Both the position numbers and the translations under genes were made by a program. The notes below the pieces were generated by a model. It ran no database searches and was not told the origin of the DNA. It worked only from the letters and a program-made list of their open reading frames with translations. Of a stretch of DNA of 64,000 nt, positions 28,077 through 45,301 are shown in pieces. The DNA lies in the NCBI RefSeq assembly GCF_900156745.1, contig NZ_LT707065.1:3410001-3474000 (forward strand), in the 5' to 3' direction. Every line of letters starts with the position of its first letter. Position 1 is the first letter of the stretch. The DNA is from Achromobacter sp. MFA1 R4 (GTDB taxonomy: Bacteria > Pseudomonadota > Gammaproteobacteria > Burkholderiales > Burkholderiaceae_B).

Positions 28077-28123
28077 GGGCTGGGCTCGCGGTCCAAAGCC
28101 CACAGCTTACGCCCGCCTTCCTG

Positions 28124-28858: not shown

Positions 28859-29755
28859 TTACGTGGGGGTTCCCGACTCCGGATCGATCACCCGGCTGAT
28901 GACCGGGAAATAGCGGTTGCCGTGCCCCTGGGCGATCGCTGCGTCGAACCAGTGATCCACGTTGCGGGCTCCCAGCGCCTGTACGCCGGTCTGTTCCGCC
29001 AGCGCCAGCGCATAGCGCAGGTCTTTGCGGGCGTAGTCCACGGGGAAGGCTTTTTCGGGAAAGTCTGCGGGCAGGATAGCCTTTAAGCCGTGGTTGCGCA
29101 ACGCGAAGCTGTCCGCCGATCCGCGCGTGAAGGTCTCCAGCAGCACGCGCGGATCGACCCCCGAACGGTGCGCGATCGCACGGGCTTCGGACAGCGCCAG
29201 CACGGTTTCGAACAGCACCATGTTGTTCAGGATCTTCACGACCTGGCCGCTGCCGATGGGGCCGCAATGCGTGATTTCGTTCGCAAAGGTCGAGACCAGC
29301 GGCTTGACGCGCGCGAACGACGCTTCATTCCCGCCGATCATGACCGACAGCGTGCCGGCTTCGGCCGCGGCGCGCGTGCGGGCCACGGGCGCGTCGATGA
29401 AGGTCGCGCCCTTGGCGGCGAACTCGCCGGCCAATTCGCGCGTCACGTCGACAGGCGAGGTGCTCAGGTCCACGATCAACTGGCCGCTGCGCGCATTCGC
29501 CAGCAGCCCGTCGGCCGCGCGGGCAAGCTGCGCGACGACTTCGCCGGACGGCAAGGACAGGAACACCACGTCGCATTCGCGCATGATCTGCGGTGCTGTC
29601 GCCGCGGCCACGTTGTGCGGCGCCAGGCGCTGCAAGGGGGCGGGGTCGTTGTCGCAGCCCAGCACGGGCACGCCGCCCTTGGCGGCCAGGTTGCGGCAGA
29701 TGGGTTCGCCCATGACGCCCAGGCCGATGAAGCCGGCTCGTTGGAATTCAGGCAT
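28859..29755 (-). CDS. NAD(P)-dependent beta-hydroxyacid dehydrogenase (3-hydroxyisobutyrate dehydrogenase family)
   Basis: The 298-aa oxidoreductase has a Rossmann motif GFIGLGVMG at its N-terminus, the substrate motif DAPVARTRAAAEAGTLS near 120 (a variant of the usual DAPVSGG form) and the catalytic lysine segment GSGQVVKILNN near 170. The family oxidises or reduces 3-hydroxyisobutyrate, tartronate semialdehyde and related short acids. I chose the ATG at 29755, preceded by GGAGA, over an upstream in-frame start. It follows the aldehyde dehydrogenase by 75 bp and is followed by iclR 18 bp later, so it is part of that leftward unit. Exact substrate unknown. Confidence 0.87.
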   Translation of the reverse strand: MPEFQRAGFIGLGVMGEPICRNLAAKGGVPVLGCDNDPAPLQRLAPHNVAAATAPQIMRECDVVFLSLPSGEVVAQLARAADGLLANARSGQLIVDLSTSPVDVTRELAGEFAAKGATFIDAPVARTRAAAEAGTLSVMIGGNEASFARVKPLVSTFANEITHCGPIGSGQVVKILNNMVLFETVLALSEARAIAHRSGVDPRVLLETFTRGSADSFALRNHGLKAILPADFPEKAFPVDYARKDLRYALALAEQTGVQALGARNVDHWFDAAIAQGHGNRYFPVISRVIDPESGTPT

Positions 29756-29830
29756 GAGGATGGTCTCCGATGAGGTAATGGATAGGCCGCGGCGCGCGGC
29801 CATGATTGGTCTTGGGAAAAGGCGCGCGGC

Positions 29831-31285
29831 CTACATGCCGAAGTAGATGCCCTTGGACTGCTGGTACAGGCGCAGCCCGCTCACGCCTTTCTCGCGGCCG
29901 ATGCCGCTCTGCTTGAAGCCGCCGAAGGGCGTGGAGATGGAGAGCTGCTTGTAGGTGTTGATCCACACGCTGCCCGCTTCCAGGCGTTTGGCAACGCGCC
30001 AGGCGCGGCGGTAGTCCGCCGTCCAGATGCCCGAGGCCAGGCCATACGCGCTGTCGTTGGCCTGATCGACCAGGTCGTCCTCGTCCTCGAAGGTCAGCGC
30101 GCACAGCACCGGCCCGAAGATCTCTTCGCGGACCACGTGCGCGTCGCGCGACAGGCCGCCGAGGATGGTGGGGCGGTAGAACGCGCCCGCCGCAAGCGCA
30201 TCGCCGCCGGGCCGTTCTCCGCCCAGCAGGACGTGCGCGCCGTCGCGCCGCGCGGCATCGATCATGCCTTCGATCTTCTCGCGGTGACCAAAGGACGCGA
30301 TCGGCCCCATCTGCGCGCCGTCGGCGTCGGGCAGGTCGACCTTCAGGCGGCTGGCGCGCGCCACGAGCTTTTCGATGAAGGCCTTTGCGATGCTGCGCTG
30401 GACATACAGCCGCGAGCCCGCCACGCAGGACTGTCCGCTGCCTTCGAAGATGCCGCCGATGACGCCTTCAATGGCGGCGTCCTGGTCCGCGTCTTCGAAC
30501 ACAATGTGCGGCGACTTGCCGCCCAGCTCCAGGGCCACGGGCATCAGCTTTTCGGCCGCCGCATGCGCGATCGCGCGGCCGCTGGCGGTGCCGCCCGTGA
30601 ACGACACCATGCGCACGCCGGGGTGTTCGACGAGGCGCCGGCCCACCGTCGCGCCGAGTCCGGTCACGACGTTCAGAATGCCCGGCGGCAGCCCGGCTTC
30701 GAGCGCGATGCGTCCCAGCGCCAGCGCGGGCGACGAGGTGATCTCGGACGGCTTGAGGATCACGGCGTTGCCCGCGGCCAGCGCCGGCGCGACCTTCTGC
30801 GCCTCCATCGTGAGCGGCGAGTTCCACGGCGTGATCGCCACGACGACGCCATACGGGTCGTAATGCGTCATGGACAGGTAATTGCCGCGCGGCGGCGTGA
30901 CTTCCGCGCCCAGCGTCTCGCACACGCCGGCGTAGTAGCGGAAGGTGGCGGCGGCGCTGGCGACCTGGGCCTTGCATTCGGCCCACACCTTGCCGTTCTC
31001 GATCATCTGCAGGCGGGCGAGCAGGGGCGCGTTCTGGTCCATGCCGTCGGCGATGCGGCGCAGGATCGCGGCGCGCTGGTGCGGCAGCATGTCGCGCCAC
31101 GCGGGCTGGCGCTGCGCTTGCCAGGCGGCCTCCACCGCCTGGTCGACCTGGGCCTCGGAGGCCGCGCTGATCAGGTAGTTGCGGGCCCCGGTGGCGGGGT
31201 TGACGGATTCGAACGCGGCGTCTTCCTGCGCGATCCATTCGCCGCCGATCAACATGGATTTAAGGGTTTCCGATGATTCGGACAT
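29831..31285 (-). CDS. NAD(P)-dependent aldehyde dehydrogenase
   Basis: The 484-aa enzyme of the aldehyde dehydrogenase superfamily oxidises an aldehyde to the acid. It shows the general base region ELGGKSPHIVFED and the catalytic cysteine in GSGQSCVAGSR, with the C-terminal IGREKGVSGL element. The ATG at 31285 is preceded by GAGAGGAA; the open frame extends further upstream across the promoter region and that part is not coding. It is first gene of the leftward unit with the HIBADH-like and iclR genes, divergent from operon A. Confidence 0.92.
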   Translation of the reverse strand: MSESSETLKSMLIGGEWIAQEDAAFESVNPATGARNYLISAASEAQVDQAVEAAWQAQRQPAWRDMLPHQRAAILRRIADGMDQNAPLLARLQMIENGKVWAECKAQVASAAATFRYYAGVCETLGAEVTPPRGNYLSMTHYDPYGVVVAITPWNSPLTMEAQKVAPALAAGNAVILKPSEITSSPALALGRIALEAGLPPGILNVVTGLGATVGRRLVEHPGVRMVSFTGGTASGRAIAHAAAEKLMPVALELGGKSPHIVFEDADQDAAIEGVIGGIFEGSGQSCVAGSRLYVQRSIAKAFIEKLVARASRLKVDLPDADGAQMGPIASFGHREKIEGMIDAARRDGAHVLLGGERPGGDALAAGAFYRPTILGGLSRDAHVVREEIFGPVLCALTFEDEDDLVDQANDSAYGLASGIWTADYRRAWRVAKRLEAGSVWINTYKQLSISTPFGGFKQSGIGREKGVSGLRLYQQSKGIYFGM

Positions 31286-31353: not shown

Positions 31354-31382
31354 TTGACAGCCTGGGTTTGAAAAAATATAAA
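31354..31382 (+). promoter_or_regulatory. Sigma-70-type promoter of catabolic operon A
   Basis: TTGACA at 31354-31359 and TATAAA at 31377-31382 are separated by 17 bp, a near-consensus promoter in an AT-rich island of an otherwise GC-rich region. Transcription would begin near 31389, about 70 bp before the first Bug gene. Confidence 0.8.
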
Positions 31383-31392
31383 ATAGAATAAG

Positions 31393-31411
31393 CGTTCTGC
31401 CTAATGGAACG
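31393..31411. promoter_or_regulatory. Putative IclR-type operator of operon A
   Basis: The inverted repeat CGTTC-N9-GAACG begins about 10 bp after the -10 box, so a bound protein would block initiation or escape. The same repeat with the same 9-bp spacing is found at the promoter of operon B. The site also lies within the divergent region toward the aldehyde dehydrogenase gene. Confidence 0.65.
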
Positions 31412-31458
31412 ATAAGAATAAACCGAATCTTCAACCGATGACAAGAGGAGACCTACCC

Positions 31459-32427
31459 ATGCAATGCAATTGGCTGCGCGCGCTGGCTTGTGCCGCGACC
31501 CTGTTCGCGGCGACGGCGCACGCCGACACCTATCCCTCGAAACCCGTGACGATGGTCGTGCCCTATCCGGCCGGCGGCGCGACCGACGTGGTCGCGCGCG
31601 CCGTGGCCGAACGCCTCACCCAGTCGTGGGGGCAATCGGTCATCGTCGAAAACCGCGCTGGCGCAGGCACGACGATCGGCGCAAGCTCCGTGGCGCGCTC
31701 GAAGGGCGACGGCTACACGCTGTTCATGACCACGTCCGCGCACACGATCAGCGGTCATCTGTACAACAAGCTGAGCTACGACCCGGTCAAGGATTTCGCG
31801 CCGATCACGCTGGTCACCAAGGTGCCTTTGGTGCTGGTGGTCAACCCCGCCGTTCCGGCGAAGACCTTGCCGGAATTTCTGGCCTACCTGAAGCAGAACG
31901 GCGGCTCGGTGAACTTCGCCTCGCCCGGCAACGGCACGGCGCAGCACCTGAGCGGCGAGCTCTTCAAGATCGCCACGCAATCGGGCATCACCCACGTGCC
32001 GTACCGCGGCGACGCGCCCGCCTTCACGGATCTCGCGGGCGGACAGGTGCAGATGATGCTGGCCACCATCACGTCGGCGCTGCCGCTGATCGAATCCGGC
32101 AAGCTGCGCGCGCTGGCCGTCGCCAACGGCAAGCGGGTGCAGGCGCTGCGCAACGTGCCCACGTTCGCCGAAGCCGGCATGCCGGGATTCGAGGCCGCGA
32201 CGTGGTTCGGCCTGCTGGCGCCGGCGTCGATCCCGCAGGAACAGGCGCAGCGCATCTATGAAGACGTGTCCCGGATCGTCGCCACGCCGGACATGCAGAA
32301 GCGCCTCGAAGGGCTGGGCGGAGAAGTCGTGAACAGCACACCCAAGGCGTTCGCCGCGTTCATGAACCAGGAAGAGGAGAAATGGGGCCAGGCCGTCAAG
32401 GCTTCCGGCGCCGTCGCAGCGCAGTAG
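31459..32427 (+). CDS. Bug-type (TctC family) periplasmic binding protein 1
   Basis: The 322-aa product has a signal peptide (about 1-22, ending AHA) followed by YPSKPVTMVVPYPAGG, the classic start of a mature Bug protein. It ends with the family C-terminal helices. Bug proteins bind organic acids for tripartite tricarboxylate transporters. No TctA or TctB gene is nearby, so it is an orphan binding protein. I chose the ATG at 31459, which has AGAGGAGA upstream, over an ATG at 31438. It leads operon A. Confidence 0.92.
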   Translation: MQCNWLRALACAATLFAATAHADTYPSKPVTMVVPYPAGGATDVVARAVAERLTQSWGQSVIVENRAGAGTTIGASSVARSKGDGYTLFMTTSAHTISGHLYNKLSYDPVKDFAPITLVTKVPLVLVVNPAVPAKTLPEFLAYLKQNGGSVNFASPGNGTAQHLSGELFKIATQSGITHVPYRGDAPAFTDLAGGQVQMMLATITSALPLIESGKLRALAVANGKRVQALRNVPTFAEAGMPGFEAATWFGLLAPASIPQEQAQRIYEDVSRIVATPDMQKRLEGLGGEVVNSTPKAFAAFMNQEEEKWGQAVKASGAVAAQ

Positions 32428-32502
32428 ACACCCACGCAATCCGCAGCCACGCGCCTATGCAGCGCCCGGCGCGGATCCATGCAGACACGGAGGAGACACA
32501 TC

Positions 32503-33483
32503 ATGGCAGTTGCAAAATGGCTGGCAGCAGGCGCGCTCGCGTGGTGCGCCGCATTACCCGCGGCGTCCGGCGCCGCCGAATATCCCAATGCCCCGGTCAA
32601 GTTCGTCGTGGGCTTCAGCCCCGGCAGCACGATCGATCTGGTGGCGCGCATCGTCGGCGATGCGCTGTCCACGCGCATGGGGCAGACATTCGTGGTGGAA
32701 AACCGGACCGGCGCGAACGGCATGATCGCCGCGCGCATGGTGGCGCAGGCCAAGCCCGACGGCTACACCATCCTGGTCAGCAATTCCAGCTCTATCACCG
32801 TCAATCCTTTGCTCTACAAGGACCTGCAGTACCACCCGCTGAAGGATTTCGAGCCGATCACCACGGTGGTCTCGGTGCCCTTCATCCTCACCATCAACGC
32901 CGAGAATCCGCGGGTGGCAGGGGTCGATGACGTCAAGTCGCTGGTCGAACTGGCGCGGCGCAATCCCAACACCGTCAGCTACGGTTCCGCCGGCAACGGC
33001 AACCTGATGCACCTGGCGGGCGCCCAGCTCGCCACGATGTCGAATGTGCAGATGCTGCATGTCCCCTACCGGGGCGCGGCGCCGATGGAGGCGGGCCTGC
33101 TGTCCCGGGAGGTCGATTTTGGCTTCGACACGCTGTCGGGCGTGCCGCTCATCAAGTCGGGAAAATTGAAGGCGCTGGCGGTCTCCACCGCGCAGCGCTG
33201 GCATGACCTGCCCGACGTGCCCGCTGTGGCCGAGTTGGGTTATCCGGAGTTCGACATTTCGTTCTGGGTGGGCGTGTTTGCGCCGGTGGGCACGCCGCCG
33301 GCCATCGTGGAGCGGCTGAACCGGGAGATCGCCTCGGTCGCCAAGGACCCCGCCGTGCGAGCGCGGCTGGCGGCGCAGGGCAATCCGTCGACGCAATCGC
33401 CCAAGGAATTCCGGCAGAAGATCGCCGACGAGCTCAAGCAGAACGAATCGCTCATCAAGCGCGCAAACATCACGATCGACTGA
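32503..33483 (+). CDS. Bug-type (TctC family) periplasmic binding protein 2
   Basis: The 326-aa protein has a signal peptide (about 1-25) and the mature start EYPNAPVKFVVGFSPGS, typical of Bug proteins. It is a second, clearly different paralogue next to the first, suggesting two ligands or a sensing role. The ATG at 32503 is preceded by GGAGGAGA; an in-frame ATG eight codons upstream is less likely. It is followed by the carboxylase genes. Confidence 0.92.
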   Translation: MAVAKWLAAGALAWCAALPAASGAAEYPNAPVKFVVGFSPGSTIDLVARIVGDALSTRMGQTFVVENRTGANGMIAARMVAQAKPDGYTILVSNSSSITVNPLLYKDLQYHPLKDFEPITTVVSVPFILTINAENPRVAGVDDVKSLVELARRNPNTVSYGSAGNGNLMHLAGAQLATMSNVQMLHVPYRGAAPMEAGLLSREVDFGFDTLSGVPLIKSGKLKALAVSTAQRWHDLPDVPAVAELGYPEFDISFWVGVFAPVGTPPAIVERLNREIASVAKDPAVRARLAAQGNPSTQSPKEFRQKIADELKQNESLIKRANITID

Positions 33484-33527
33484 CCGGCGCGCGGACCGCG
33501 TCGGCAACTGGCAGGAAGGAGCACAAG

Positions 33528-35072
33528 GTGTCCTGGGAAAAAGAACTGCGGGAACTGGCGTCGCGCAAGGAGTTGGCGGCGCGCATGGGGGGCGAGGCGA
33601 AGGTGCGCCGGCATCGCGAGGGCGGCAAGCTGCCGGTGCGCGAACGTATCGGCAGGATGGTCGATCCGGAATCGTTCCGGGAAGTGGGGGCGCTGGCGGG
33701 CAGCGGGGAATATGACGCCGAAGGTCGCCTGACGGACTTTACGCCGTCTAACCTGCTGATTGGCCGGGCCAAGGTCGATGGCCGCCCGGTGGTCGTCGCG
33801 GCCGATGACTTCACCGTGCGTGGCGGCGCCAACGATGGCGCCGTCGGCGACAAGCTGGTCGAATCCGAGCGCATGGCGCAGGACCTGCGCCTGCCGCTCA
33901 TCCGGCTGGTCGACGGCACGGGCGGAGGGGGCTCGGTGCGCAGCATCGAGATCAAGGGTCACACCCTGCTGCCTAAGCTGCGCATGTGGCCGCTGATGGC
34001 GCAAAACCTCGCGACCGTGCCTGTCGCGTCGCTCGCGCTGGGCTCGGTGGCCGGCCTGGGTGCGGCGCGGGTGGCGGCCAGCCACTATTCGGTCATGGTG
34101 CGCGACACCTCGCAGCTCTTCATCGCGGGACCGCCCGTCGTCGCCCGCATCGGCCAGAACCTGGACAAGAACGAGCTGGGCGGGAGCGATATCCATACCC
34201 GCAACGGCGTAGTGGACGACGAGGCCGATTCCGAAGAGGCCGCCTTCGCGATGGTCCGGCGCTTCCTGTCCTACCTGCCGCGCTCGGTGCACGAACTGCC
34301 GCCGCGCGCCGCCGAGTCCGGCCAGGCGGGCGCGCAAGACTGGCTGCGTGCGGCCATCCCCACCGACCCACGCGCGGTCTACAAGATGCGGCCCATCGTC
34401 GAGGCGCTGGTCGACGCAGGCTCTTTCATGGAGATCGGCAGGCGCTGGGGGCGCGCCGTCATTACCGGCCTGGCGCGCATCGACGGCTGGCCGGTGGCCG
34501 TGTTCGGGAGCGATCCCTATCACTACGGCGGTGGCTGGGACGGGCCGGCGGCCGAGAAATTCACCCGTCTGCTGGACCTGGCCGAGACCTTTCATCTGCC
34601 GGTCGTGAACCTGGTCGACGTGCCCGGATTCCAGATCGGGCTCAGTGCCGAAAAGGCCGGCGCCATGCGCTACGGCGTGCGCGCGCTGACGGCTGTCGCG
34701 CAATCCACGGTGCCATGGTGCTCGATCATTGTGCGCAAGGCATTCGGCGTGGCGGCGGGCGGACACCAGAGTGCGGGCCGCTTCAATTTCCGCTACGCGT
34801 GGCCATCGGCCCAGTGGGGCTCGTTGCCGGTCGAGGGTGGGCTGGAGGTCGCGTACAAGGCCGAGATCGAAGCCGCCGAGGATCCCCAGGCCAAGATGCG
34901 CGAAATCGAAGCGCGCGTGCGCAGCCTGACCTCGCCGTTCCGCAGCGCCGAAGCCTTCGTCGTGGAAGACATCATCGATCCCGCCGCGACCCGCCAGGTG
35001 CTGGAGGAATTCGTGGAACTGGTGGCGCCGCTGCGCGAACCCGGCCCGCGCGCCTTCGGCTACCGTCCGTGA
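33528..35072 (+). CDS. Acyl-CoA carboxylase, carboxyltransferase subunit
   Basis: The 514-aa protein matches the carboxyltransferase (beta) subunit of propionyl-, methylcrotonyl- and geranyl-CoA carboxylases, with both crotonase-like halves: N-terminal GRAKVDGRPVVVAADDFTVRGG and C-terminal VDVPGFQIGLSAEKAG. It transfers carboxybiotin CO2 to an acyl-CoA. The GTG start at 33528 has AAGGAG upstream. Biotin carboxylase and a carrier protein follow directly. Which acyl-CoA is used is unknown. Confidence 0.9.
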   Translation: MSWEKELRELASRKELAARMGGEAKVRRHREGGKLPVRERIGRMVDPESFREVGALAGSGEYDAEGRLTDFTPSNLLIGRAKVDGRPVVVAADDFTVRGGANDGAVGDKLVESERMAQDLRLPLIRLVDGTGGGGSVRSIEIKGHTLLPKLRMWPLMAQNLATVPVASLALGSVAGLGAARVAASHYSVMVRDTSQLFIAGPPVVARIGQNLDKNELGGSDIHTRNGVVDDEADSEEAAFAMVRRFLSYLPRSVHELPPRAAESGQAGAQDWLRAAIPTDPRAVYKMRPIVEALVDAGSFMEIGRRWGRAVITGLARIDGWPVAVFGSDPYHYGGGWDGPAAEKFTRLLDLAETFHLPVVNLVDVPGFQIGLSAEKAGAMRYGVRALTAVAQSTVPWCSIIVRKAFGVAAGGHQSAGRFNFRYAWPSAQWGSLPVEGGLEVAYKAEIEAAEDPQAKMREIEARVRSLTSPFRSAEAFVVEDIIDPAATRQVLEEFVELVAPLREPGPRAFGYRP

Positions 35073-35092
35073 CGCCTCGCCAGGAGCCCAAC

Positions 35093-36448
35093 ATGAAACG
35101 AGTCATCGTGGCCAACCGGGGCGCCGTCGCCCGCCGCGTCATCCGCGCCTTGCGCGCGCTCGGCATCGAGTCGGTCGCGGTCCATGCCGAGGCCGATCGC
35201 GACATGCCCTACCTGTCCGAAGCGGACCTGGCCGTGCCGATCGGGCCATCGCCCGCGGTGCAGAGCTACCTGAACCAGGAGACCTTGTTGCGCGTCGCGC
35301 GCGAAACTGGCGCGGACGGCCTGCACCCGGGATATGGCTTCCTCTCCGAGAACGCGGCGTTCGCCGAGGCCGTGGAGCAGGCGGGCCTGATCTTCGTGGG
35401 CCCGTCGCCGCGCTGGATCCGCATGCTCGGGCACAAGACCCAGGCGCGCGACGCGATGCGCGCGCTGGGCATGCCGATGGCGCCCAGCAGCGCGGTGCTG
35501 GGCGATGACCTCGCGGCGCTGCGCCAGGCCGCCGGAGACCTGGGGTACCCGGTGCTGATCAAGCCGGCTTCGGGCGGCGGCGGGATCGGCATGATCCCGT
35601 TGCAGGGGCCGCAGGATGCCGAAGCGCAGTGGGCGCGCGCGCGGCAGATTTCAGAACGCAGCTTCGGCGGCGGCTCCGATCTTTACCTGGAAAAACTGCT
35701 GCGCAACCCGCGCCACGTCGAATTCCAGTTCCTGGCTGACCGCCACGGGCAGGTGCGCTGCCTGTACGAGCGCGACTGCTCCACGCAGCGCCGCCACCAG
35801 AAGGTGCTGGAGGAGGCGCCCGCGCCCGGGTTGCCACGTGCGGCGCTCAAGGAGATGGGCGCGCGGCTGGAAGCCATGCTGGCGGGCATGGGGTACGACG
35901 TGATCGGCACGGTGGAGATGCTGTATACGCCCGAATCGGGCTTCTCCTTCCTGGAGATCAACACCCGCCTGCAGGTCGAGCACGCCGTGACCGAAGCCGT
36001 GACGGGCGTGGACATCGTGGCCGCGCAGTTGAGGCTGGCGGCCGGCGACCGCATGCAGGACGTGCTGCCGCAGGTCCCGCCACTGGACGGACACGCCGTC
36101 GAGGCACGCGTCTACGCCGAGGATCCGGTGCGATTCCTGCCTTCGCCCGGCCTGTTGCGGGTGTTCCAGCCGCCCGCGATGCCTGGCGTGCGTGTCGAAA
36201 CGGGCTACGCCGAAGGCTGCCGTGTGTCGAGCCACTACGACCCGATGCTGGCCAAAGTGATCGCGCATGCCGCCACTCGCGAGCAGGCGCTCGATCTGCT
36301 GAGGTCGGCGCTGGCGCAGTTCCGCGTGGAAGGCGTCAAGACCAACATTCCGTTCGTGCTCCGGGTGGTCGAGGACCCGGAGTTCCGCGCCGGGCGGGTC
36401 AGCACCGGCATGGCGGAGCGCATTCTCGCCGAGGCGCAGCCCGCCTAG
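35093..36448 (+). CDS. Biotin carboxylase subunit of the acyl-CoA carboxylase
   Basis: The 451-aa ATP-grasp enzyme carboxylates biotin using bicarbonate and ATP. Family motifs are KRVIVANRGAVARRV at the N-terminus, the glycine-rich loop KPASGGGGIGMI near 160-170 and INTRLQVEHAVTE near 285-297. The ATG at 35093 is preceded by AGGAG; the frame is open far upstream but that overlaps the carboxyltransferase gene. Unlike the MccA, PccA or AtuF types, it has no C-terminal biotin carrier domain; this is supplied by the next gene. Confidence 0.92.
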   Translation: MKRVIVANRGAVARRVIRALRALGIESVAVHAEADRDMPYLSEADLAVPIGPSPAVQSYLNQETLLRVARETGADGLHPGYGFLSENAAFAEAVEQAGLIFVGPSPRWIRMLGHKTQARDAMRALGMPMAPSSAVLGDDLAALRQAAGDLGYPVLIKPASGGGGIGMIPLQGPQDAEAQWARARQISERSFGGGSDLYLEKLLRNPRHVEFQFLADRHGQVRCLYERDCSTQRRHQKVLEEAPAPGLPRAALKEMGARLEAMLAGMGYDVIGTVEMLYTPESGFSFLEINTRLQVEHAVTEAVTGVDIVAAQLRLAAGDRMQDVLPQVPPLDGHAVEARVYAEDPVRFLPSPGLLRVFQPPAMPGVRVETGYAEGCRVSSHYDPMLAKVIAHAATREQALDLLRSALAQFRVEGVKTNIPFVLRVVEDPEFRAGRVSTGMAERILAEAQPA

Positions 36449-36489
36449 GCCGTTCGCAGGTTCAAACCGACAACTATCAGGAGCAGACA

Positions 36490-36702
36490 ATGTTCAAAGT
36501 GGAAACCCCCGTGGTCGGCCGCGTGGTCGCCGTCACCGTCAGCCCGGGCCAGCGCGTCGAGGCGGGCGACAGCGTGGCCAAGGTCGAATCGATGAAGATG
36601 GAAATTCCCGTGGAGGCGGAACGCGCGGGCGTCGTGGCGCGCGTACTCGTCGGCGAGGGCGACGAGGTGGACGAAGGCCAGGTCGTGGTCGAGCTGGAGT
36701 GA
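36490..36702 (+). CDS. Stand-alone biotinyl carrier protein (70 aa)
   Basis: This minimal biotinyl-lipoyl domain carries the biotinylation site ESMKMEIP with Lys36. It has no extra N-terminal linker, so it is only the swinging-domain part of a carboxylase. An AGGAG ribosome-binding site lies upstream. It lies 41 bp after the biotin carboxylase gene and 7 bp before the bifunctional hydratase/dehydrogenase gene, so the carboxylase consists of three separate polypeptides. Confidence 0.92.
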   Translation: MFKVETPVVGRVVAVTVSPGQRVEAGDSVAKVESMKMEIPVEAERAGVVARVLVGEGDEVDEGQVVVELE

Positions 36703-36709
36703 GACCGCC

Positions 36710-38797
36710 ATGCTGATCCATACGGAACGGATGGAAGGAGGGCGCGTCGCATTGCTGGCGCTGCGCAATCCGCCGGTCAACAGCATGAGCGCGGCGCTGC
36801 GCGCCGAACTGCATGCGGCGATCGACGCCGCGCTGGCCAACGACACGGTAAGCGCCCTGGTGCTGGCGGGTGACGGCGACTTTTTTTGCTGCGGCGCCGA
36901 GATCCGTGAATTCAACACGCCACTGTCGACGCGCGAACCGACGCTGCGGTCCGTCATCGCCCGGATTGAGGAAGCCGGCAAGCCCGTGGTGGCGGCCATC
37001 CACGGCGCGGCGCTGGGCGGAGGCCTGGAGCTGGCGCTGGGCTGCCATTACCGCGTCGCGCTTGCCGGCGCGTCGCTGGGCCTGCCCGAAGTGAAGCTGG
37101 GCGTGCTGCCCGGCGCGGGCGGCACGCAGCGCCTGCCACGCATTGTGGGCGTCGAGCGGGCGCTGTCGATGATCTGCGGCGGCGATCCCGTCGACGCCAG
37201 CCTGGCTCGGGACTGGGGACTGGTCGACGAAGTCTATGCGGACGGCCTCAGAACGCGGGCGGCGGCCTATGCGCTGGCGATCGCCGACGCGCCGCTGGCC
37301 GATCGCAACGTGGGTGCGCGGCCAGTACCGGCGCCCGCCGACCCCGGCGTCTATGAACGCGCCCGGCAGGAGGCTGCGCGGCGCTACCGCGGTTGCGTGG
37401 CGCCGCTCGCCTGCGTGGACTGCGTGGAATACGCCACTCGGGCCCCGCTGGGCGACGGGCTCGCTTTCGAGCGCGAGCGCTTCCTGGAGTTGGTCAACGG
37501 CAGCCAGTCCAAGGCGCAGCGCCACCTGTTCTTCGCCGAGCGCGCCGCGGTCAAGCTGCCGGCTGAATGGCGCGCGGCGGCGCCCATCGCCTCGGTGGGG
37601 GTGGTCGGCGCGGGCACGATGGGCGGCGGCATCGCCATGAGCCTGTCCAATGCGGGGTTCGACGTGGTGCTGGTCGAGCGCGAGGCGCAGGCGCTGGAGC
37701 GCGGCTGGTCGGTGATTGCGAAGAACTACGCCGCTACGGCGGCCAAGGGCAATCTGACCGCCGCGCAGGTCGCGGAACGTCAGGCGCGTATCCGCCCCAG
37801 CCTGGACATGGAAGACCTGCGCGACGTCGACCTGGTGATCGAGGCCGCGTTCGAGGACATGGGCGTCAAGCGCCAGATATTCCAGCTGCTGGCCCGCGTC
37901 TGCAAGCCAGGCGCGATCCTCGCGTCGAACACGTCGCGGTTGGATATCGACGAAATCGCCGGGTTCACCGACCGTCCTGCCCAGGTACTGGGCATGCACT
38001 TCTTCAGTCCCGCGAACGTCATGCGGCTGCTGGAAGTGGTGAAGGGCCGCGAAACCGATGGCAACGTCGTCGCTGCCGTGTTTCGTCTCGCGCGCAGGAT
38101 GGGCAAGCTGCCCGTGCTGGTAGGGGTGTGCGACGGGTTCGTCGGCAACCGCATGGTCAGTCCCTACACGCGCGAGGCGCACTTCCTGCTGGAGGAGGGC
38201 GCGACGCCGGCGCAGGTGGACGGCGCGCTGCAACGCTTCGGCCTGGCGATGGGGCCGCTGCGCATGGCCGACATGGCGGGGCTGGACATCAGTTGGGCGT
38301 TTCGCAAGCGCACGGCGCCCACCCGGCCGGCCCATGTCCGCTACTCGCGCGTGGCCGACCGCCTCTGCGAGCAGGGGCGCTTGGGGCAAAAGACCGGCGG
38401 CGGCTTCTACCGCTATGAGGCAGGCAGTCGCGCGCCGCTGGAAGATCCGGACGTGCTGGCGCTGATCGAGACCTGCGCGCGCGAAGACGGCGTCGCGCGC
38501 CGCGCGATCTCCGACGAGGAAATCGTGCAGCGCACGATGTATGCGCTGGTCAACGAAGCCGCGCGCATCCTGGACGAGGGCATCGCGCGCCGCGCGTCGG
38601 ACATCGACGTCATCTACGTCAACGGCTACGGCTTTCCCGTGCACCGTGGCGGGCCGTTGTTCTATGCCGACCAGCAGGGACTGCCGCAGGTGCTGGCGAC
38701 GATCCGGCGCTTTCACGCCGAACATGGCGAACTCTGGCGCCCCGCGCCTTTGCTCGAACGGTTGGTCGCGCAGGGGCGCACCTTCGCGGAATTGTGA
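36710..38797 (+). CDS. Bifunctional enoyl-CoA hydratase / 3-hydroxyacyl-CoA dehydrogenase (FadB/FadJ-like)
   Basis: The 695-aa protein has an N-terminal crotonase domain (about 1-190; oxyanion loop [12 protein letters not shown], second motif [14 protein letters not shown]). An NAD-binding domain follows (about 293-475; [14 protein letters not shown], catalytic HFFSPA near 430), with C-terminal dehydrogenase domains to about 690. It would hydrate an enoyl-CoA and oxidise the 3-hydroxyacyl-CoA. It starts 7 bp after the carrier gene in operon A. It is similar in size to the ~700-aa FadJ-like proteins of betaproteobacteria. Confidence 0.92.
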
Positions 38798-38846
38798 TGG
38801 ACAAGGGGCGTTGACGCGCCCCGCAAAAGAATCAGGAGACCAGGAA

Positions 38847-39245
38847 ATGCAGAGGGAACAGGCGGGCGCCGCGCCACGCGGGCCGCAGGAACAGTATTTT
38901 TCGAAGCTGGCCGAAGGCCATTTCCAGATCCAGCGCTGCACGGCTTGCGGCGCGCATCAGTTCTTTCCGCGCGTCCTGTGCATGCATTGCGGCGCGCAGG
39001 ACCTGGCGTGGACCGAGCCATCGGGCGCCGGCACGGTCTATTCGTTCAGCATTGTGCGGCGCAAGCCTGAGTCGGGCGGCGACTACAACGTGGCGCTGGT
39101 CGACCTGCAGGAAGGAGTGCGGATGATGAGCCGCGTCGACGGCGTCGCGCTGGACAGCCTGCGGATCGGCATGCCGGTCCGGGCACGCGTGCTGCGCGGC
39201 GAGGGTCAGCCGCTGGTCGTGTTCGTTCCCGCGGAGGACGCATGA
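38847..39245 (+). CDS. DUF35 zinc-ribbon/OB-fold protein, partner of the thiolase-like protein
   Basis: This 132-aa protein has the DUF35 layout: an N-terminal helix (EQYFSKLAEGHFQIQRC), a rubredoxin-like zinc ribbon with CTAC and CMHC, then an OB fold (GTVYSFSIVRR). DUF35 proteins typically bind acyl-CoA and pair with thiolase-like subunits, as in the steroid aldolase Ltp2-ChsH2. I chose the ATG at 38847, after CAGGAGACCAGG. It overlaps the thiolase-like gene by 4 bp (ATGA), supporting a complex. Confidence 0.88.
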   Translation: MQREQAGAAPRGPQEQYFSKLAEGHFQIQRCTACGAHQFFPRVLCMHCGAQDLAWTEPSGAGTVYSFSIVRRKPESGGDYNVALVDLQEGVRMMSRVDGVALDSLRIGMPVRARVLRGEGQPLVVFVPAEDA

Positions 39246-40417
39246 TGTCGCTGGAATCGCTGCGCGGCCAGGTCGCCATCGCTGGCGTGGGGCACGCGGG
39301 CCTGGGCGAAGCCCATGGCCATACGGAAATGGAAGTGCTGGCGCAGGCCGCCGCGCGCGCGGTGGCGGACGCCGGCCTCACCATGCGCGACATCGATGGG
39401 CTGGCGACGTGCAGCTCTTCGGCCACGATGTGGAGCATGCCCGTCGCCGAATACCTGGGCTTGAGGCCGCGCTATATCGAGGCGACGATGTTGGGCGGGT
39501 CCAGCTTCGTCTCGCACCTGCTGCCTTCGGTGATGGCGCTGGTTTCCGGACAATGCAACGCGGTGCTGGTCTGCTACGGCAGCACGCAGAAGACGGCGAC
39601 GTTCGGGCGCAAGGAGGGCGTAAAGGCGCGCACGCTGCTGGACCCGCAGCCGTTGGAACACCCGTATTCGCCTCTGCAACCGGTGACATCCTATGCGCTG
39701 GCTGCCGCGCGGCATATGCACCAATACGGTACCACGCGCGAACAGCTTGCCGAGGTGGCGGTCGCGGCGCGTGCCTGGGCGCGGCTCAATCCGGAGGCCG
39801 CGATGCGCGATCCATTGTCGATCGCCGACGTGCTGGCCTCGCGTCCCGTATCGGATCCCCTGACGGTGCGCGACTGCTGCCTGGTGAGCGATGGCGGCGG
39901 CGCGTACGTGATGGTGCGGGCGGACCGTGCGCGGCAGCTCAAGCAACCGCCGGTCTATGTGCTGGGCAGTGCGACCGCCGTGTGGAACCGGCAGATCTCG
40001 TCGATGGAGGACCTGACGGTCACCGCGGCAGCGGAATCGGGCAAGCGCGCGCTCGCCATGGCGGGACTGAACGTCGCCGACGTCGACGTGGCCGAGCTCT
40101 ACGACGCCTTCACGATCAATACGCTGCTGTTCCTGGAAGACCTGGGCTTCTGCAAGAAGGGCGAGGGCGGCGCGTTCGTGCAGGACGGGGCTATCGCGCC
40201 GGGCGGCCGGCTGCCCGTCAACACGAACGGCGGCGGGCTGTCCTGCGTGCATCCCGGCATGTACGGCATTTTCCTGGTCATCGAGGCTGTGCGCCAGCTT
40301 CGGGCGCAGGCGGGCGAACGGCAGGTGCGGGGCGCCGACATTGCGCTGGTGCACGGCAACGGCGGCACGCTGTCCAGCCAGTCCACCGCCATCCTGGGCG
40401 GCCCTGCCACGCGTTGA
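39242..40417 (+). CDS. Thiolase-like protein (SCP-x type) lacking the canonical nucleophilic cysteine
   Basis: The 391-aa protein has a thiolase fold with C-terminal motifs ELYDAFT, NGGGLSCVHPG and HGNGG in the usual places. Around residue 85 the stretch MLGGSSF replaces the normal cysteine-containing loop, and the late catalytic CxG motif is HGN, so ordinary Claisen thiolysis is doubtful. Thiolase-like proteins of this kind with a DUF35 partner include retro-aldolases such as Ltp2. Here it could cleave a carbon-carbon bond in a hydroxyacyl-CoA; this is inference. It overlaps the DUF35 gene and precedes the CoA-transferase genes. Confidence 0.85.
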   Translation: MMSLESLRGQVAIAGVGHAGLGEAHGHTEMEVLAQAAARAVADAGLTMRDIDGLATCSSSATMWSMPVAEYLGLRPRYIEATMLGGSSFVSHLLPSVMALVSGQCNAVLVCYGSTQKTATFGRKEGVKARTLLDPQPLEHPYSPLQPVTSYALAAARHMHQYGTTREQLAEVAVAARAWARLNPEAAMRDPLSIADVLASRPVSDPLTVRDCCLVSDGGGAYVMVRADRARQLKQPPVYVLGSATAVWNRQISSMEDLTVTAAAESGKRALAMAGLNVADVDVAELYDAFTINTLLFLEDLGFCKKGEGGAFVQDGAIAPGGRLPVNTNGGGLSCVHPGMYGIFLVIEAVRQLRAQAGERQVRGADIALVHGNGGTLSSQSTAILGGPATR

Positions 40418-40447
40418 ACCACGGCTTCCCTCGAAGGAGAGCAATCC

Positions 40448-41140
40448 ATGCTGGACAAGATAGTCGATACCCTGGCGGACGCGGTGGCGGGTGTGCAGGA
40501 CGGGGCGGTAATCCTCATCGGCGGGTTCGGCGCCTCGGGCGTGCCGACCGAACTGGTCTGCGCGCTGCTGGACCAGGGCGCGCGCGAACTGACCATCGTC
40601 AACAACAACGCCGGCAACGGCAAGCGCGGCCTGAGCGAGCTGGTGCAGGCCGGGAGGGTGCGCAAGATGGTCTGCTCGTTCGCGCGCTCGTCAGACCGCA
40701 AGAATCCAAACGCGGCCGCCTTCGCAGAGGCCTATCGGGCCGGCAAGGTCGAGCTCGAATGCGTGCCGCAGGGCACGATGGCCGAGCGCATGCGCGCGGC
40801 AGGCGCCGGCCTGGGTCCATTCTTTACGCCGACTGCGTTCGGCACGCCGCTGGCCCGTGGCAAGGAGACGCGAATCATCGACGGCGTGGGCTACGTGTTG
40901 GAGTCGCCGCTCAAGGGCGACTATGCCTTCGTCAAGGCGCGGACGGCGGACCGCTGGGGCAACCTGACGTACCGCTATGCGGGCCGCAATTTCGCGCCAG
41001 TCATGTGCATGGCGGCCGCCATGACAGTGGCGCAGGTCGATGAGATCGTGGAACTGGGCGGCATAGCGCCCGAGCAGGTCATGACGCCAGGAATCTTCGT
41101 CAAGCGGGTGGTGCAAGTGGGAGCGGGTCATGGGCTATGA
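40448..41140 (+). CDS. 3-oxoacid (3-oxoadipate-type) CoA-transferase subunit A
   Basis: The 230-aa alpha subunit has GGFGASGVPTELV near the N-terminus and VPQGTMAERMRA and DRWGNLTYR downstream, all as in PcaI-type subunits. With subunit B it would move CoA from succinyl-CoA to a 3-oxoacid or similar carboxylate. The last codons overlap subunit B by 11 bp. No other beta-ketoadipate gene is nearby, so a different acid is likely the substrate. Confidence 0.9.
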   Translation: MLDKIVDTLADAVAGVQDGAVILIGGFGASGVPTELVCALLDQGARELTIVNNNAGNGKRGLSELVQAGRVRKMVCSFARSSDRKNPNAAAFAEAYRAGKVELECVPQGTMAERMRAAGAGLGPFFTPTAFGTPLARGKETRIIDGVGYVLESPLKGDYAFVKARTADRWGNLTYRYAGRNFAPVMCMAAAMTVAQVDEIVELGGIAPEQVMTPGIFVKRVVQVGAGHGL

Positions 41141-41801
41141 AAAACTCAGCCGGCGCGGCATTGCGCGCCTCGTCGCGGCGGATATCGAGGATGGCGCCTA
41201 CGTAAACCTGGGCATCGGCATTCCGACGCTGGTGTCGGCATTTCTGCCCCGGGGGCGCGACGTGATCCTGCACACCGAGAACGGGATTGTCGGCATGGGG
41301 CCCGGCGATCCTGACGCGCCGCTGGACCTGGACCTCATCAATGCCAGCAAAGAGGCCGTAACCCTGCTGCCCGGCGCGTCCATCACGGACCACGTGGTGT
41401 CGTTCGCCATGATGCGCGGCGGACATCTTGACCTGACCGTGCTGGGCGCGTTCCAGGTGTCCGAAAAGGGCGATCTCGCCAACTGGGACACGGGCGCCGC
41501 GGACACGATCCCAGCTGTCGGCGGCGCGATGGATCTCGTGGCCGGGGCGCGCCAGGTCTACATCACGATGGAGCACGTCACCAAGGACGGTCAGCCCAAG
41601 ATCGTGCGCGAATGTACCTATCCCCTGACCGGCGCGGGTGTCGTGGACCGCATTTATACCGACCTGGCGATCATCGATGTGGCGCCGGCAGGCATGCGGG
41701 TGAGGGCGATGGTCGCCGGGCTGAGATTCGAGGATCTGCAGGCGCTTACAGGCTGCCCGCTGGCACTGGCTCCCGATTGCCGGACGCTGGCGGCGGAATA
41801 A
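41130..41801 (+). CDS. 3-oxoacid (3-oxoadipate-type) CoA-transferase subunit B
   Basis: The 223-aa beta subunit carries the catalytic glutamate in TENGIVGMGP and the family segments AYVNLGIGIPTL and MMRGGHLDLTVLGAFQVS. It resembles PcaJ. It is the last gene of operon A; the promoter of operon B begins about 65 bp after its stop. Confidence 0.92.
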   Translation: MGYEKLSRRGIARLVAADIEDGAYVNLGIGIPTLVSAFLPRGRDVILHTENGIVGMGPGDPDAPLDLDLINASKEAVTLLPGASITDHVVSFAMMRGGHLDLTVLGAFQVSEKGDLANWDTGAADTIPAVGGAMDLVAGARQVYITMEHVTKDGQPKIVRECTYPLTGAGVVDRIYTDLAIIDVAPAGMRVRAMVAGLRFEDLQALTGCPLALAPDCRTLAAE

Positions 41802-41866
41802 GCGGCGGCGATTGCGGCGGGGCGCTTGCAGGCGGCGGCACCAGCCCTTTTCGTGCTTTCCCCGTG

Positions 41867-41896
41867 TTGACACCGATCGTTTTGGCTCCTTAGAAT
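41867..41896 (+). promoter_or_regulatory. Sigma-70-type promoter of catabolic operon B
   Basis: TTGACA at 41867-41872 and TAGAAT at 41891-41896 are 18 bp apart. Transcription would start near 41903, about 50 bp before the first gene. Confidence 0.75.
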
Positions 41897-41897
41897 G

Positions 41898-41935
41898 TTC
41901 TTACAGAAAGAATAATCGTTCTGCTGAAAAGAACG
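41898..41935. promoter_or_regulatory. Putative tandem IclR-type operators of operon B
   Basis: CGTTC-N9-GAACG at 41917-41935 is the same inverted repeat, with the same spacing, as at operon A. A second repeat, TTCTT-N5-AAGAA, lies at 41898-41912 across the predicted start site. The two centres are 21 bp apart, about two helical turns, so two dimers could bind on the same DNA face. Confidence 0.6.
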
Positions 41936-41954: not shown

Positions 41955-42350
41955 ATGCAGAACCAAGCCATGCCCGCGCGGGAAGCTGGCGGCGCGCAGC
42001 TCGCGCAGCGCTTTTGCCGCTGCGCGCTGTCGTTTTCGCGGCCACGCCAGGTCGACATGGACCTGCTGGTCGGGTTCGGCGCCCATCCCGTCCTCGTGCG
42101 CATCCGCGAGGGCCGGGTCACCGCCGCCGAGTTTCCCGCTGTTCCGCTGCCGTCGTGCGACATTGCCCTGCGCGCCTCCGAGCAAGCCTGGACGCGATTC
42201 TGGCAGGTCGTGCCGGACGCGGGCTGGCACGACATCTTCGCGCTCAGCAAGCGCGGCGAGCTATCCATCGATGGCAATCTTCAGCCGCTGATGGCGCACC
42301 TGCAATTCGTGAAGGACCTGCTGGCCTCGGCCAGGGAGGCGCGGGCATGA
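41955..42350 (+). CDS. Small SCP2-like (sterol-carrier-type) protein
   Basis: The 131-aa soluble protein has no signal peptide. Its C-terminal half (DIFALSKRGELSIDGNLQ then MAHLQFVKDLL) resembles the end of SCP2 lipid-binding domains, which bind fatty acyl or hydrophobic ligands. The match is by pattern only. AGGAAGAG precedes the ATG. It opens operon B and overlaps the alpha/beta-hydrolase gene by 4 bp, so the two proteins probably work on the same hydrophobic substrate. Confidence 0.65.
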   Translation: MQNQAMPAREAGGAQLAQRFCRCALSFSRPRQVDMDLLVGFGAHPVLVRIREGRVTAAEFPAVPLPSCDIALRASEQAWTRFWQVVPDAGWHDIFALSKRGELSIDGNLQPLMAHLQFVKDLLASAREARA

Positions 42351-43195
42351 GCGCTGCACTGGAACCCATCGTCGGACGCTATGTGTCGTTCGATATCGCC
42401 GGCAAGCGCTGCCGCGTCTATTTCGAGGAAGCGGGCGAGGGCATTCCGCTCGTATGCCTGCACACGGCAGGCGCGGACGGCCGCCAGTACCGCCACATGA
42501 TGTGCGACCCGGAGATCACGTCGCGCTTTCGCGTCATCGCCTTCGACATGCCCTGGCACGGCAAGTCCTACCCGCCTGAAGGCTGGCAGGACCAGGAATA
42601 CCGTCTCTCCACCGAGCTGTACGTCGAAACCGTGATGGCCTTCTGCCAGGCGCTGGATCTGGACCGCCCCGCGCTCATCGGCTGCTCCATCGGCGGGCGC
42701 ATCGTGCTACAGCTCGCGCATCTGCATTCCGACGCGTTTCGCGCTCTGATCGGCGTCGAGGCGGCCGACCACCAGCAGCCCTGGTACGACACGTCCTGGC
42801 TGCACCGCGGCGACGTGCACGGCGGCGAAGTCTGCGCGGCGCTGGTGTCCGGGCTGGTCGCCCCGCAGTCGCCCGACGTGCATCGCCATGAGACGCTGTG
42901 GCAATACATGCAGGGCGGTCCCGGCGTCTTCCGCGGCGACCTGTACTTCTACCGCGTGGACAGCGATCTGCGTGGACGCCTGGACGGCATCCGCACCGAC
43001 CGATGCCCGCTCTACCTGCTGACGGGGGAATACGACTTCTCCTGCACGCCGGAAGACACCTTGCGCACCGCGGCAGGCATTCCCGGCGCGCAGGTGACCA
43101 TCATGCGCGAATTGGGCCATTTTCCGATGAGCGAAAACCCGGGTCAGTTCCGCAGCTATGTGCTGCCGGTGCTGGACGCCATCGCCCGCCAATAG
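42347..43195 (+). CDS. Alpha/beta-hydrolase
   Basis: The 282-aa protein has the hydrolase fold: an oxyanion region (LHTAGADG, about 39-45), the nucleophile elbow GCSIGGR with Ser114, a candidate acid in LTGEYDFS and a histidine in ELGHFPMSENP. It may hydrolyse an ester, lactone or thioester, or a C-C bond. I chose the ATG at 42347, which overlaps the previous stop (ATGA); the frame stays open upstream inside the SCP2-like gene. Substrate unknown. Confidence 0.88.
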   Translation: MSAALEPIVGRYVSFDIAGKRCRVYFEEAGEGIPLVCLHTAGADGRQYRHMMCDPEITSRFRVIAFDMPWHGKSYPPEGWQDQEYRLSTELYVETVMAFCQALDLDRPALIGCSIGGRIVLQLAHLHSDAFRALIGVEAADHQQPWYDTSWLHRGDVHGGEVCAALVSGLVAPQSPDVHRHETLWQYMQGGPGVFRGDLYFYRVDSDLRGRLDGIRTDRCPLYLLTGEYDFSCTPEDTLRTAAGIPGAQVTIMRELGHFPMSENPGQFRSYVLPVLDAIARQ

Positions 43196-43246: not shown

Positions 43247-44410
43247 ATGCGTTATCCGATCATCCTGGCCAGCGCTTTCGCGCTGGCCGCAGCTTCCAAC
43301 GCCCACGCCCAAGAGACGCTGAAGCTGGGCGCGCTGGTCACGCTTTCTGGCGCCGGCGCGGCCTGGGGCCAGGGCATGAAAAACGCCGCGGAGGTCGCCG
43401 CCGACCAGGTGAACGAGGCGGGCGGCCTGGAAGTGGGCGGCAAGAAGTACCGCGTGCAGGTGGTGGCCTACGACGACAAGTACCAGGCAAACGAGGCCGT
43501 CACCGTGGCGAACCGCCTGGTGTTCGAGGACAAGGTGCGCTATGTGATCGGCCCCGTCGGGTCCGCGCCCGTGCTCGCCATCCAGCCGATGACCGAAAAG
43601 AACAAGGTCATCGTGCTGACGCTGGGATTCACGGCCAAAGCCCTGGCCGGCGACAAGCCCTATACCTTCCGCCCCAACGTCACCACCGCCGAGGTCTCGC
43701 AGCCGCAGATCGACTGGCTCGTCAAGGCGCAGGGCCTGCGCAAGGTCGGCGCGCTGTTCCCCAACGACGAAACCGGCCAGCAGATCGCGCTGGACCTGGA
43801 GGCCGCCTACAAGAAAGCGGGCGCGGCGCTGGCCACCAAGGAATTCTTCGAGCGCGACCGCGTCGACTTCGTGCCGCTCCTGACCCGCATGATGGCGCGC
43901 GGCATCGACGCCATTGAACTGGACGGCAATTCCCCCACCACCGCGGGCCTCATCGTCAAGCAGGCGCGCGAACTGGGATTCGAAGGCAAGATCGTACGCA
44001 CGGGCGGCCCTGCCACCCAGGAGATCGTCAACGTGGCCGGCAAGCAGGCGACCGAAGGCATGCTGGTCCATACGCCGATCGATCCGGAACTGCCCGCCAC
44101 CCAGGCCTATGCCCAGCGCTACGCGGCCAAGTACAAGCACCCGATGAACGGCTTCAGCCCCGCCTTCTATGACGGCACCAACATGCTGTTCGAGGCCATG
44201 CGGCGCGCCGGCACGGTGGAGGACACGGAACGCGTGCGCGTCGAACTGGAGAAGCTGGACGATTTCGAGGGCTCACTGGGCAAGCTGAGCTGGACCGGCA
44301 AGGCCAGGTACGGCATCGATCACCAGCTCAATGCGCCGTTCTACGTCGCCGAGGTCAAGGATGGCCGCGAGGTCATCCGCGCCCGCTGCACGGTCGAAGG
44401 ATGCCGCTAG
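43247..44410 (+). CDS. LivK-like periplasmic binding protein of catabolic operon B
   Basis: The 387-aa protein has a signal peptide (about 1-21, ending AHA) and the type I binding-protein fold (ETLKLGALVTLSGAGAAWG). It is the receptor for the permeases and ATPases at 44429-47755. The operon otherwise encodes catabolic enzymes, so its ligand is probably the pathway substrate or a precursor rather than a branched-chain amino acid. An AGGAGA ribosome-binding site is present. Confidence 0.9.
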   Translation: MRYPIILASAFALAAASNAHAQETLKLGALVTLSGAGAAWGQGMKNAAEVAADQVNEAGGLEVGGKKYRVQVVAYDDKYQANEAVTVANRLVFEDKVRYVIGPVGSAPVLAIQPMTEKNKVIVLTLGFTAKALAGDKPYTFRPNVTTAEVSQPQIDWLVKAQGLRKVGALFPNDETGQQIALDLEAAYKKAGAALATKEFFERDRVDFVPLLTRMMARGIDAIELDGNSPTTAGLIVKQARELGFEGKIVRTGGPATQEIVNVAGKQATEGMLVHTPIDPELPATQAYAQRYAAKYKHPMNGFSPAFYDGTNMLFEAMRRAGTVEDTERVRVELEKLDDFEGSLGKLSWTGKARYGIDHQLNAPFYVAEVKDGREVIRARCTVEGCR

Positions 44411-44428
44411 CGCGGCGGAGGAAACGAC

Positions 44429-45298: not shown

Positions 45299-45301
45299 GC
45301 C

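Follow-up and report, generated by a model that had tools for sequence, protein, structure and literature searches.

Are the two long rightward gene runs in a 64,000-nucleotide stretch of Achromobacter sp. MFA1 R4 DNA (contig NZ_LT707065.1, positions 3,410,001 to 3,474,000; below, the window, with positions counted from its first letter) switched by the one regulator gene encoded beside them? An earlier note on this DNA had pointed to an inverted repeat, CGTTC-N9-GAACG, at the head of each run and to a gene of the IclR family nearby, and had predicted a single regulon of about 18 genes. The present analysis makes it highly likely that one catabolic regulon is repressed by the local IclR protein (28124-28840, minus strand). 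The two neighbouring clusters, for the uptake and breakdown of an organic compound, very probably form one jointly switched set. The single regulon stood up to comparison with related genomes, while its size is probably 21 genes rather than 18, because a divergent run of genes for aldehyde dehydrogenase (ALDH), a 3-hydroxyisobutyrate dehydrogenase-like protein (HIBADH) and IclR shares the first of the two sites.

Promoters and operator boxes in the window and the genome

Exact copies of CGTTC-N9-GAACG lie at 31393-31411 (site A) and 41917-41935 (site C) and nowhere else in the window. With up to two mismatches the pattern gave 34 window matches against 39.9 expected in shuffles, and these loose versions are uninformative because the count is below the shuffle expectation. 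The genome-wide check proposed in the earlier note was run on the organism's own genome (6.23 Mb) with the reversed pattern as control, and the bare repeat was not specific, with 15 exact places against 10. The bare repeat was dropped as evidence on both counts, and asking whether the motif is common in the genome is a misleading refutation test if it is applied to CGTTC-N9-GAACG. GTTCTG-N6-RGAAC with one mismatch was also uninformative (88 matches, 111 in the control).

The real operator is longer than the bare repeat and has three boxes at site A and four at site C. The AATAA flank reported before both copies is present, but it belongs to AGAATAA, in which AGAAT forms another half-site. The full element, AGAAY-N4-GTTCT-N7-RGAAY, had three matches in the window at up to two mismatches, where 0.11 were expected and none of 100 shuffles reached three. 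In the whole genome the only exact matches were sites A and C. The sole one-mismatch match was an overlapping reverse copy at site C, which exposes the fourth box (matches were listed in mismatch order, completely up to two mismatches). At three mismatches the three-box pattern fell to background, with 220 genome matches against 240 in the control. A check on a short palindrome can mislead, and the full box grammar is decisive.

Operator A (31385-31410, plus strand) consists of AGAAT at 31385, N4, GTTCT at 31394, N7 and GGAAC at 31406. Operator C (41897-41934, plus strand) consists of GTTCT at 41897, N7, AGAAT at 41909, N4, GTTCT at 41918, N7 and AGAAC at 41930, and thus of two palindromes whose centres are 21 bp apart. 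Operator A is without the fourth box, and the -10 region occupies that position. The repeat had been described as lying directly downstream of a near-consensus sigma-70 promoter in both places, and this proved correct: promoter A (31354-31382, plus strand; TTGACA 31354-31359, 17 nt, TATAAA 31377-31382) and promoter C (41867-41896, plus strand; TTGACA 41867-41872, 18 nt, TAGAAT 41891-41896) each match 11 of 12 consensus positions. A consensus scan caught promoter C and missed promoter A, because the scan requires T at position 6 of the -10 hexamer. Both operators start directly behind the -10 hexamer and extend downstream. With transcription assumed to start about 7 nt behind the -10, the predicted coverage is about -4 to +22 for operator A and about -6 to +32 for operator C, and such positions would fit a repressor. 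On the minus strand, towards ALDH, the consensus scan found two weak promoter-like places (9 of 12 positions), of which 31403-31375 overlaps operator A and 31444-31415 stops four bases short of it.

Same-genus sequences were aligned for site A (13 sequences) and site C (12 sequences), with mean column identity as the measure. At site A the three boxes reached 1.00, against 0.92 in the N4 spacer, 0.85 in the N7 spacer and 0.73 downstream. At site C the boxes reached 1.00, 1.00 and 0.98, against 0.75 and 0.69 in the spacers and 0.61 downstream. The third box was invariant in all 13 A and all 12 C sequences. At site A the stretch from the -10 to the third box was invariant in 13 of 13.

Outside the window the same genome holds, at G000:C1:1517480-1517517, two overlapping AGAAC-N4-GTTCT-type matches (two and three mismatches), which may be the operator of another regulator. 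A GTTCC-type three-box site with two mismatches (G000:C1:4590572-4590597) and an AT-rich palindrome, CGTTCAAATTATTTGAACG (G000:C1:5403887-5403905), are further candidate operators, of other regulators.

Co-occurrence with the regulator and position at module heads

At a threshold of E <= 1e-60, an orthologue of the IclR protein was found in 43 of 268 family genomes (own genome included), from 11 of 43 genera. A separate scan placed the closest relatives of the protein in Achromobacter, Bordetella, Candidimonas, Pollutimonas and kin. The exact three-box pattern, scanned with C as its last base, was present in 45 of the 268 genomes and the reversed pattern in 4. It occurred in 41 of the 43 genomes with the orthologue, and in 4 of the 225 genomes without it; in the own genus the corresponding figures were 13 of 13 and 1 of 30. 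IclR-bearing genomes of 11 genera carry it. Of the 43, only G081 and G232 lack an exact site: G081 has one-mismatch sites (locus L072), and in G232 the IclR contig ends early. Among the IclR-negative genomes with the site, G028 (78% complete) carries it before the operon-2 head and G129 (90% complete) before an MBL-PrpD-TctC run (MBL, metallo-beta-lactamase fold). In G178 and G196 there was no module gene within 3 kb of the site, and the site of G196 lies inside an open frame; both look like chance.

Genus g43 has kept one of the gene modules (module C, below) with no IclR orthologue at E <= 1e-60. None of its 12 fetched operon-2 heads carried the three-box site at up to two mismatches (the 12 are the g43 loci among 30 returned loci, and more g43 genomes were listed without loci), and none of 32 whole g43 genomes (G236-G267) carried the exact pattern. 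Wider g43 stretches (L234-L237, which repeat four of the twelve) held no IclR relative at E 1e-6.

To place the sites relative to genes, 43 orthologue loci other than the window were fetched at up to 20 kb each (two from G183; L082 is a 2.1-kb contig end), and three modules were mapped: A (IclR-HIBADH-ALDH, usually facing TctC1), B (from TctC2 through CoA-transferase B) and C (from the 131-aa protein through the MBL gene). In the relatives, B and C vary independently of each other, each being present, missing, fused or inverted. Of the 40 loci with ALDH, 36 have an exact three-box site no more than 360 bp upstream of that gene, and the heads of module C in IclR loci carry the site at up to one mismatch in 21 of 23. 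Where module B is fused behind TctC1, no three-box site was found at up to three mismatches in any of 12 loci; where it stands apart, a site at up to one mismatch is present in four of seven (L076, L078, L229, L086). Across about 1.0 Mb of loci, some of them overlapping, 95 of 107 three-box matches at up to two mismatches lie at module heads. Ten of the 12 non-head matches have at most one mismatch (L061, L072, L073, L084 and L086/L238, one place counted twice); on the map that of L073 stands before the MBL gene, that of L084 before the operon-2 head and that of L086 before iclR. The remaining two, in L049 and L051, are one orthologous place and look like chance. The operator heads most modules that stand as separate operons and is absent where a module is fused behind another.

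The head counts leave out loci without a recognisable ALDH (L071, L082, L086) or without an operon-2 head at >=45% identity. L231 and L232 do not enter the module-B count, as their contigs stop short of the module-B head, and the ALDH count leaves out L233, where distant copies of ALDH and TctC1 (57% and 60%) are without the site. L238 and L234-L237 were omitted as repeats of other loci. Three positive heads are not among the 21 of 23: L233 and L239 have exact sites, and L084, whose head falls barely below the identity threshold, has a site with one mismatch. An operator-like site was also seen on the iclR or ALDH side in some relatives (L086:1671, the same as L238:3071, and near ALDH in L076, L078 and L083), which suggests autoregulation of the iclR operon.

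The IclR protein as a putative repressor

The regulator (238 aa) matches the N-terminal IclR helix-turn-helix domain (HTH_IclR, PF09339) with 32.3 bits against a cut-off of 22 (residues 16-65) and the C-terminal effector domain (IclR_C, PF01614) with 41.2 bits against 24, the best stretch being residues 172-225 only. Its relatives of solved structure are distant only (best E 1.5e-15), and none of the NCBIfam models passes its cut-off for this protein. The best of them is BhcR (NF045644), a regulator linked to the beta-hydroxyaspartate cycle, but with 87.7 bits against a cut-off of 350 the protein is not BhcR by that model. The PcaR/PcaU/PobR model (TIGR02431) gave 66.2 bits against 284.75, which by this score places the protein outside that subfamily. 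Literature searches returned no recognised description of this regulator.

The operators resemble those described in the main text of Suvorova and Gelfand (2021; PMC8222616), which treats 181 orthologue groups. There, group-1 operators of the IclR family are GTT-11-AAC and related sites, three-box sites add the group-2 spacing, and tandem palindromes stand 18-22 nt apart. The arm spacing GTT-11-AAC, a 17-bp palindrome, is found here as GTTCTGCCTAATGGAAC at site A and GTTCTGCTGAAAAGAAC at site C; AGAAT-N4-GTTCT at both sites supplies the third box in alternating direction at the group-2 spacing, the tandem at site C has a spacing of 21 nt, and the sites lie just upstream of a gene start like the operators of that study. 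PcaU, PobR and HmgR are three-box regulators beside catabolic genes as well, though with a gene content different from this locus; for the three-box sites themselves they are cited in the same text (PcaU as needing the third box). Relative to the full consensus GKTYCRYW3-4RYGRAMC given there, site A differs at one position in the arms (T for C) and one in the centre, site C at three in the arms and one in the centre. Among relatives, sequences such as GTTCTGTTAAACAGAAC carry T in both arms. The departure is consistent and group-specific, and the fit to the consensus is imperfect. Because spacing, third box and tandem agree though the arms differ, the locus is predicted to belong with this known kind of IclR-family operator. 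The main text of that study, supplementary tables aside, makes no mention of Bordetella or Achromobacter.

For this organism, we infer from these patterns that IclR binds, represses and regulates its own operon, and likewise the inducer, the transcript starts and the operon structure. IclR would bind the three-box operator AGAAT-N4-GTTCT-N7-GGAAC at promoter A and the four-box tandem operator at promoter C, and as a bound dimer or tetramer it would block RNA polymerase; a block is proposed because both operators begin directly after the -10 and reach to about +22 or +32. IclR would be released by an inducer, probably either an intermediate of the pathway or a lactone or organic acid that the TctC or Liv systems import, whereupon the 10 genes of operon 1 and the 8 of operon 2 would rise together. 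Site A, lying in the divergent region, probably also controls ALDH-HIBADH-iclR, which would amount to autoregulation.

Several points weigh against a single regulon repressed by IclR. Members of the IclR family can act as activators too, and the sign of control does not follow from position alone. The value of p = 3e-41 (Fisher) for the co-occurrence of operator and IclR ignores shared ancestry and overstates independence. The ALDH heads of L061, L072, L075 and L085 (4 of 40) have no site at up to two mismatches; L075 has one at three mismatches, and in L061 and L072 a site lies further off, before other genes. The module-C heads without a site, L066 and L067, where module C follows TctC1 directly or at about 0.1 kb, need the extra assumption that module C may be co-transcribed with TctC1. 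The arms read GTTCT, where the consensus in the main text of PMC8222616 has GTTYC. Three of the seven separate module-B heads (L087, L088, L230) hold only a three-mismatch three-box site, the fused module-B heads L050 and L052 carry a one-mismatch two-box site, and among the g43 heads L193 holds a one-mismatch two-box site and L188 a three-mismatch three-box site.

The sign of regulation leads to the first alternative, that IclR binds both operators but as an activator or dual regulator, as PobR and PcaU are; we consider this improbable, though it is the strongest of the competing explanations. The family offers the precedent, and PcaU is cited as needing a third box (PMC8222616, main text). 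Both operators here begin a few bases behind the -10 and run downstream, where an activator would obstruct, and promoters that match 11 of 12 consensus positions would need restraint rather than help. A different regulator might read the boxes, with IclR a mere neighbour, since G028 and G129 keep the site at a module head with no IclR detected; these assemblies are incomplete, and IclR may simply be missing from them. That the genome has only two exact places argues that the reader serves this locus, and the presence of the operator tracks the IclR orthologue. IclR is, moreover, the only transcription-factor-like gene among 36 distinct genes between 22161 and 63011 (Pfam). Another reader is very unlikely.

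Least credible, and disfavoured to the point of being hardly worth entertaining, is that the repeat reflects chance or ancestral promoter similarity and has no operator role. The near-control frequency of the bare repeat in the genome speaks for it, as does site A, where no position varies from the -10 through the third box and the constraints of promoter and operator are therefore inseparable. Against it, chance falls far short of explaining the extended element, and IclR-bearing genomes from 11 genera carry exact copies. The boxes show stronger conservation than the spacers, and the operator is absent where a module is fused and likewise where the regulator is missing. Repression by the local IclR protein is preferred over these alternatives. 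A further idea, that IclR pairs differently on the two operators, by alternative dimerisation on three boxes and as a tetramer on four, is speculative and on balance doubtful. The three-box and four-box arrangements are each found again in other genera, even as the modules behind them fuse, split and move. If the idea is true, the locus would test the alternative-dimerisation proposal that the main text of PMC8222616 leaves for experiment, and graded induction of the two pathway halves could result.

Genes of the candidate regulon and hints to its substrate

The two rightward runs described in the earlier note do hold 18 genes, 10 from 31459 and 8 from 41955. Each run is read as one transcript because gaps within the runs are at most 51 nt; between the runs there are 153 nt, which contain site C, and two operons are the probable structure. 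On the minus strand, ALDH (29831-31285, Pfam Aldedh) is the first gene of the divergent run, followed by the HIBADH-like gene (28859-29803, NAD_binding_2 and NAD_binding_11) and the gene for the putative repressor. The genes of both operons are on the plus strand. Operon 1 is headed by the TctC-type solute-binding protein TctC1 (31459-32427, TctC) and continues with TctC2 (32479-33483, TctC), the head of module B where B is separate in relatives. These are followed by an acyl-CoA carboxylase-type carboxyltransferase (33528-35072, Carboxyl_trans), a biotin carboxylase (35093-36448, Biotin_carb_N, CPSase_L_D2 and Biotin_carb_C), a 70-aa biotin carrier protein (36490-36702, Biotin_lipoyl), and an enoyl-CoA hydratase/3-hydroxyacyl-CoA dehydrogenase fusion (36710-38797, ECH_1, 3HCDH_N and 3HCDH). 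The operon ends with a ChsH2-type zinc ribbon/OB-fold protein (38829-39245, start approximate; zf-ChsH2 and OB_ChsH2_C), a thiolase-family protein (39242-40417, Thiolase_C_1; NCBIfam NF004811 with 669.8 bits against a cut-off of 421) and CoA-transferase subunits A (40448-41140) and B (41130-41801), both CoA_trans.

Operon 2 starts with a 131-aa protein (41955-42350) that has no Pfam or NCBIfam match, followed by an alpha/beta hydrolase (42347-43195, Abhydrolase_1), a LivK-H-M-G-F branched-chain-type ABC transporter (43247-47755; Peripla_BP_6, two BPD_transp_2 genes and two ABC_tran genes) and, last, an MBL-fold hydrolase resembling lactonases (47757-48569, start approximate; Lactamase_B). In the mapped loci the gene for the 131-aa protein always adjoins the alpha/beta hydrolase gene, and both genes persist side by side in genus g43, where this IclR is absent. 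The MBL gene is found near the IclR locus even in places that show nothing else of operon 2 (e.g., L055, L061, L071). Just downstream of iclR and on the same strand lies a gene for a phospholipase C-type phosphoesterase (25929-28103); a piece of it adjoins iclR in 6 of the 43 fetched loci (L048, L054-L058), in stretches that mostly reach less than 1 kb past iclR. We take COG3181 to be TctC. AtoDA pairs, Liv transporters and COG3181 are among the genes of IclR regulons in the main text of PMC8222616.

Attempts to identify the substrate from the sequence failed: for ALDH, HIBADH, the alpha/beta hydrolase and the MBL hydrolase, all NCBIfam models stayed below their cut-offs, and the PDB relatives are general. 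For the MBL hydrolase the AiiA, AttM and 4-pyridoxolactonase models match below cut-off, a likeness to N-acyl homoserine lactonases and 4-pyridoxolactonase. In some relatives, genes for MmgE/PrpD, PEP-mutase/isocitrate-lyase-like, Asp/Glu-racemase-like, class II aldolase and 2-hydroxyacid dehydrogenase proteins are found close to or behind such sites. Three-box operators before other genes were seen at L061:5858-6060, L301:6395, L303:5360, L299:6010 and L072:6807, with MmgE/PrpD-TctC, MBL-PrpD-TctC, TctC-class II aldolase-2-hydroxyacid dehydrogenase and a racemase-like gene behind them. These extra sites would extend the regulon in relatives and hint at hydroxy- or dicarboxylic acids. ALDH and HIBADH adjoin the regulator in most loci. 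Because of the operator-associated genes in relatives and of ALDH and HIBADH beside the regulator, our guess is that the pathway serves the catabolism of a hydroxy- or dicarboxylic acid.

The locus offers a concrete, strongly conserved operator and a candidate regulon of 21 genes in Achromobacter, Bordetella and their relatives. Its matched pair of three-box and four-box promoters would be useful for studying IclR dimerisation on DNA. Many TctC-type binding proteins in these bacteria are without a known substrate, and the genes that rise together with them would be a short route to it.

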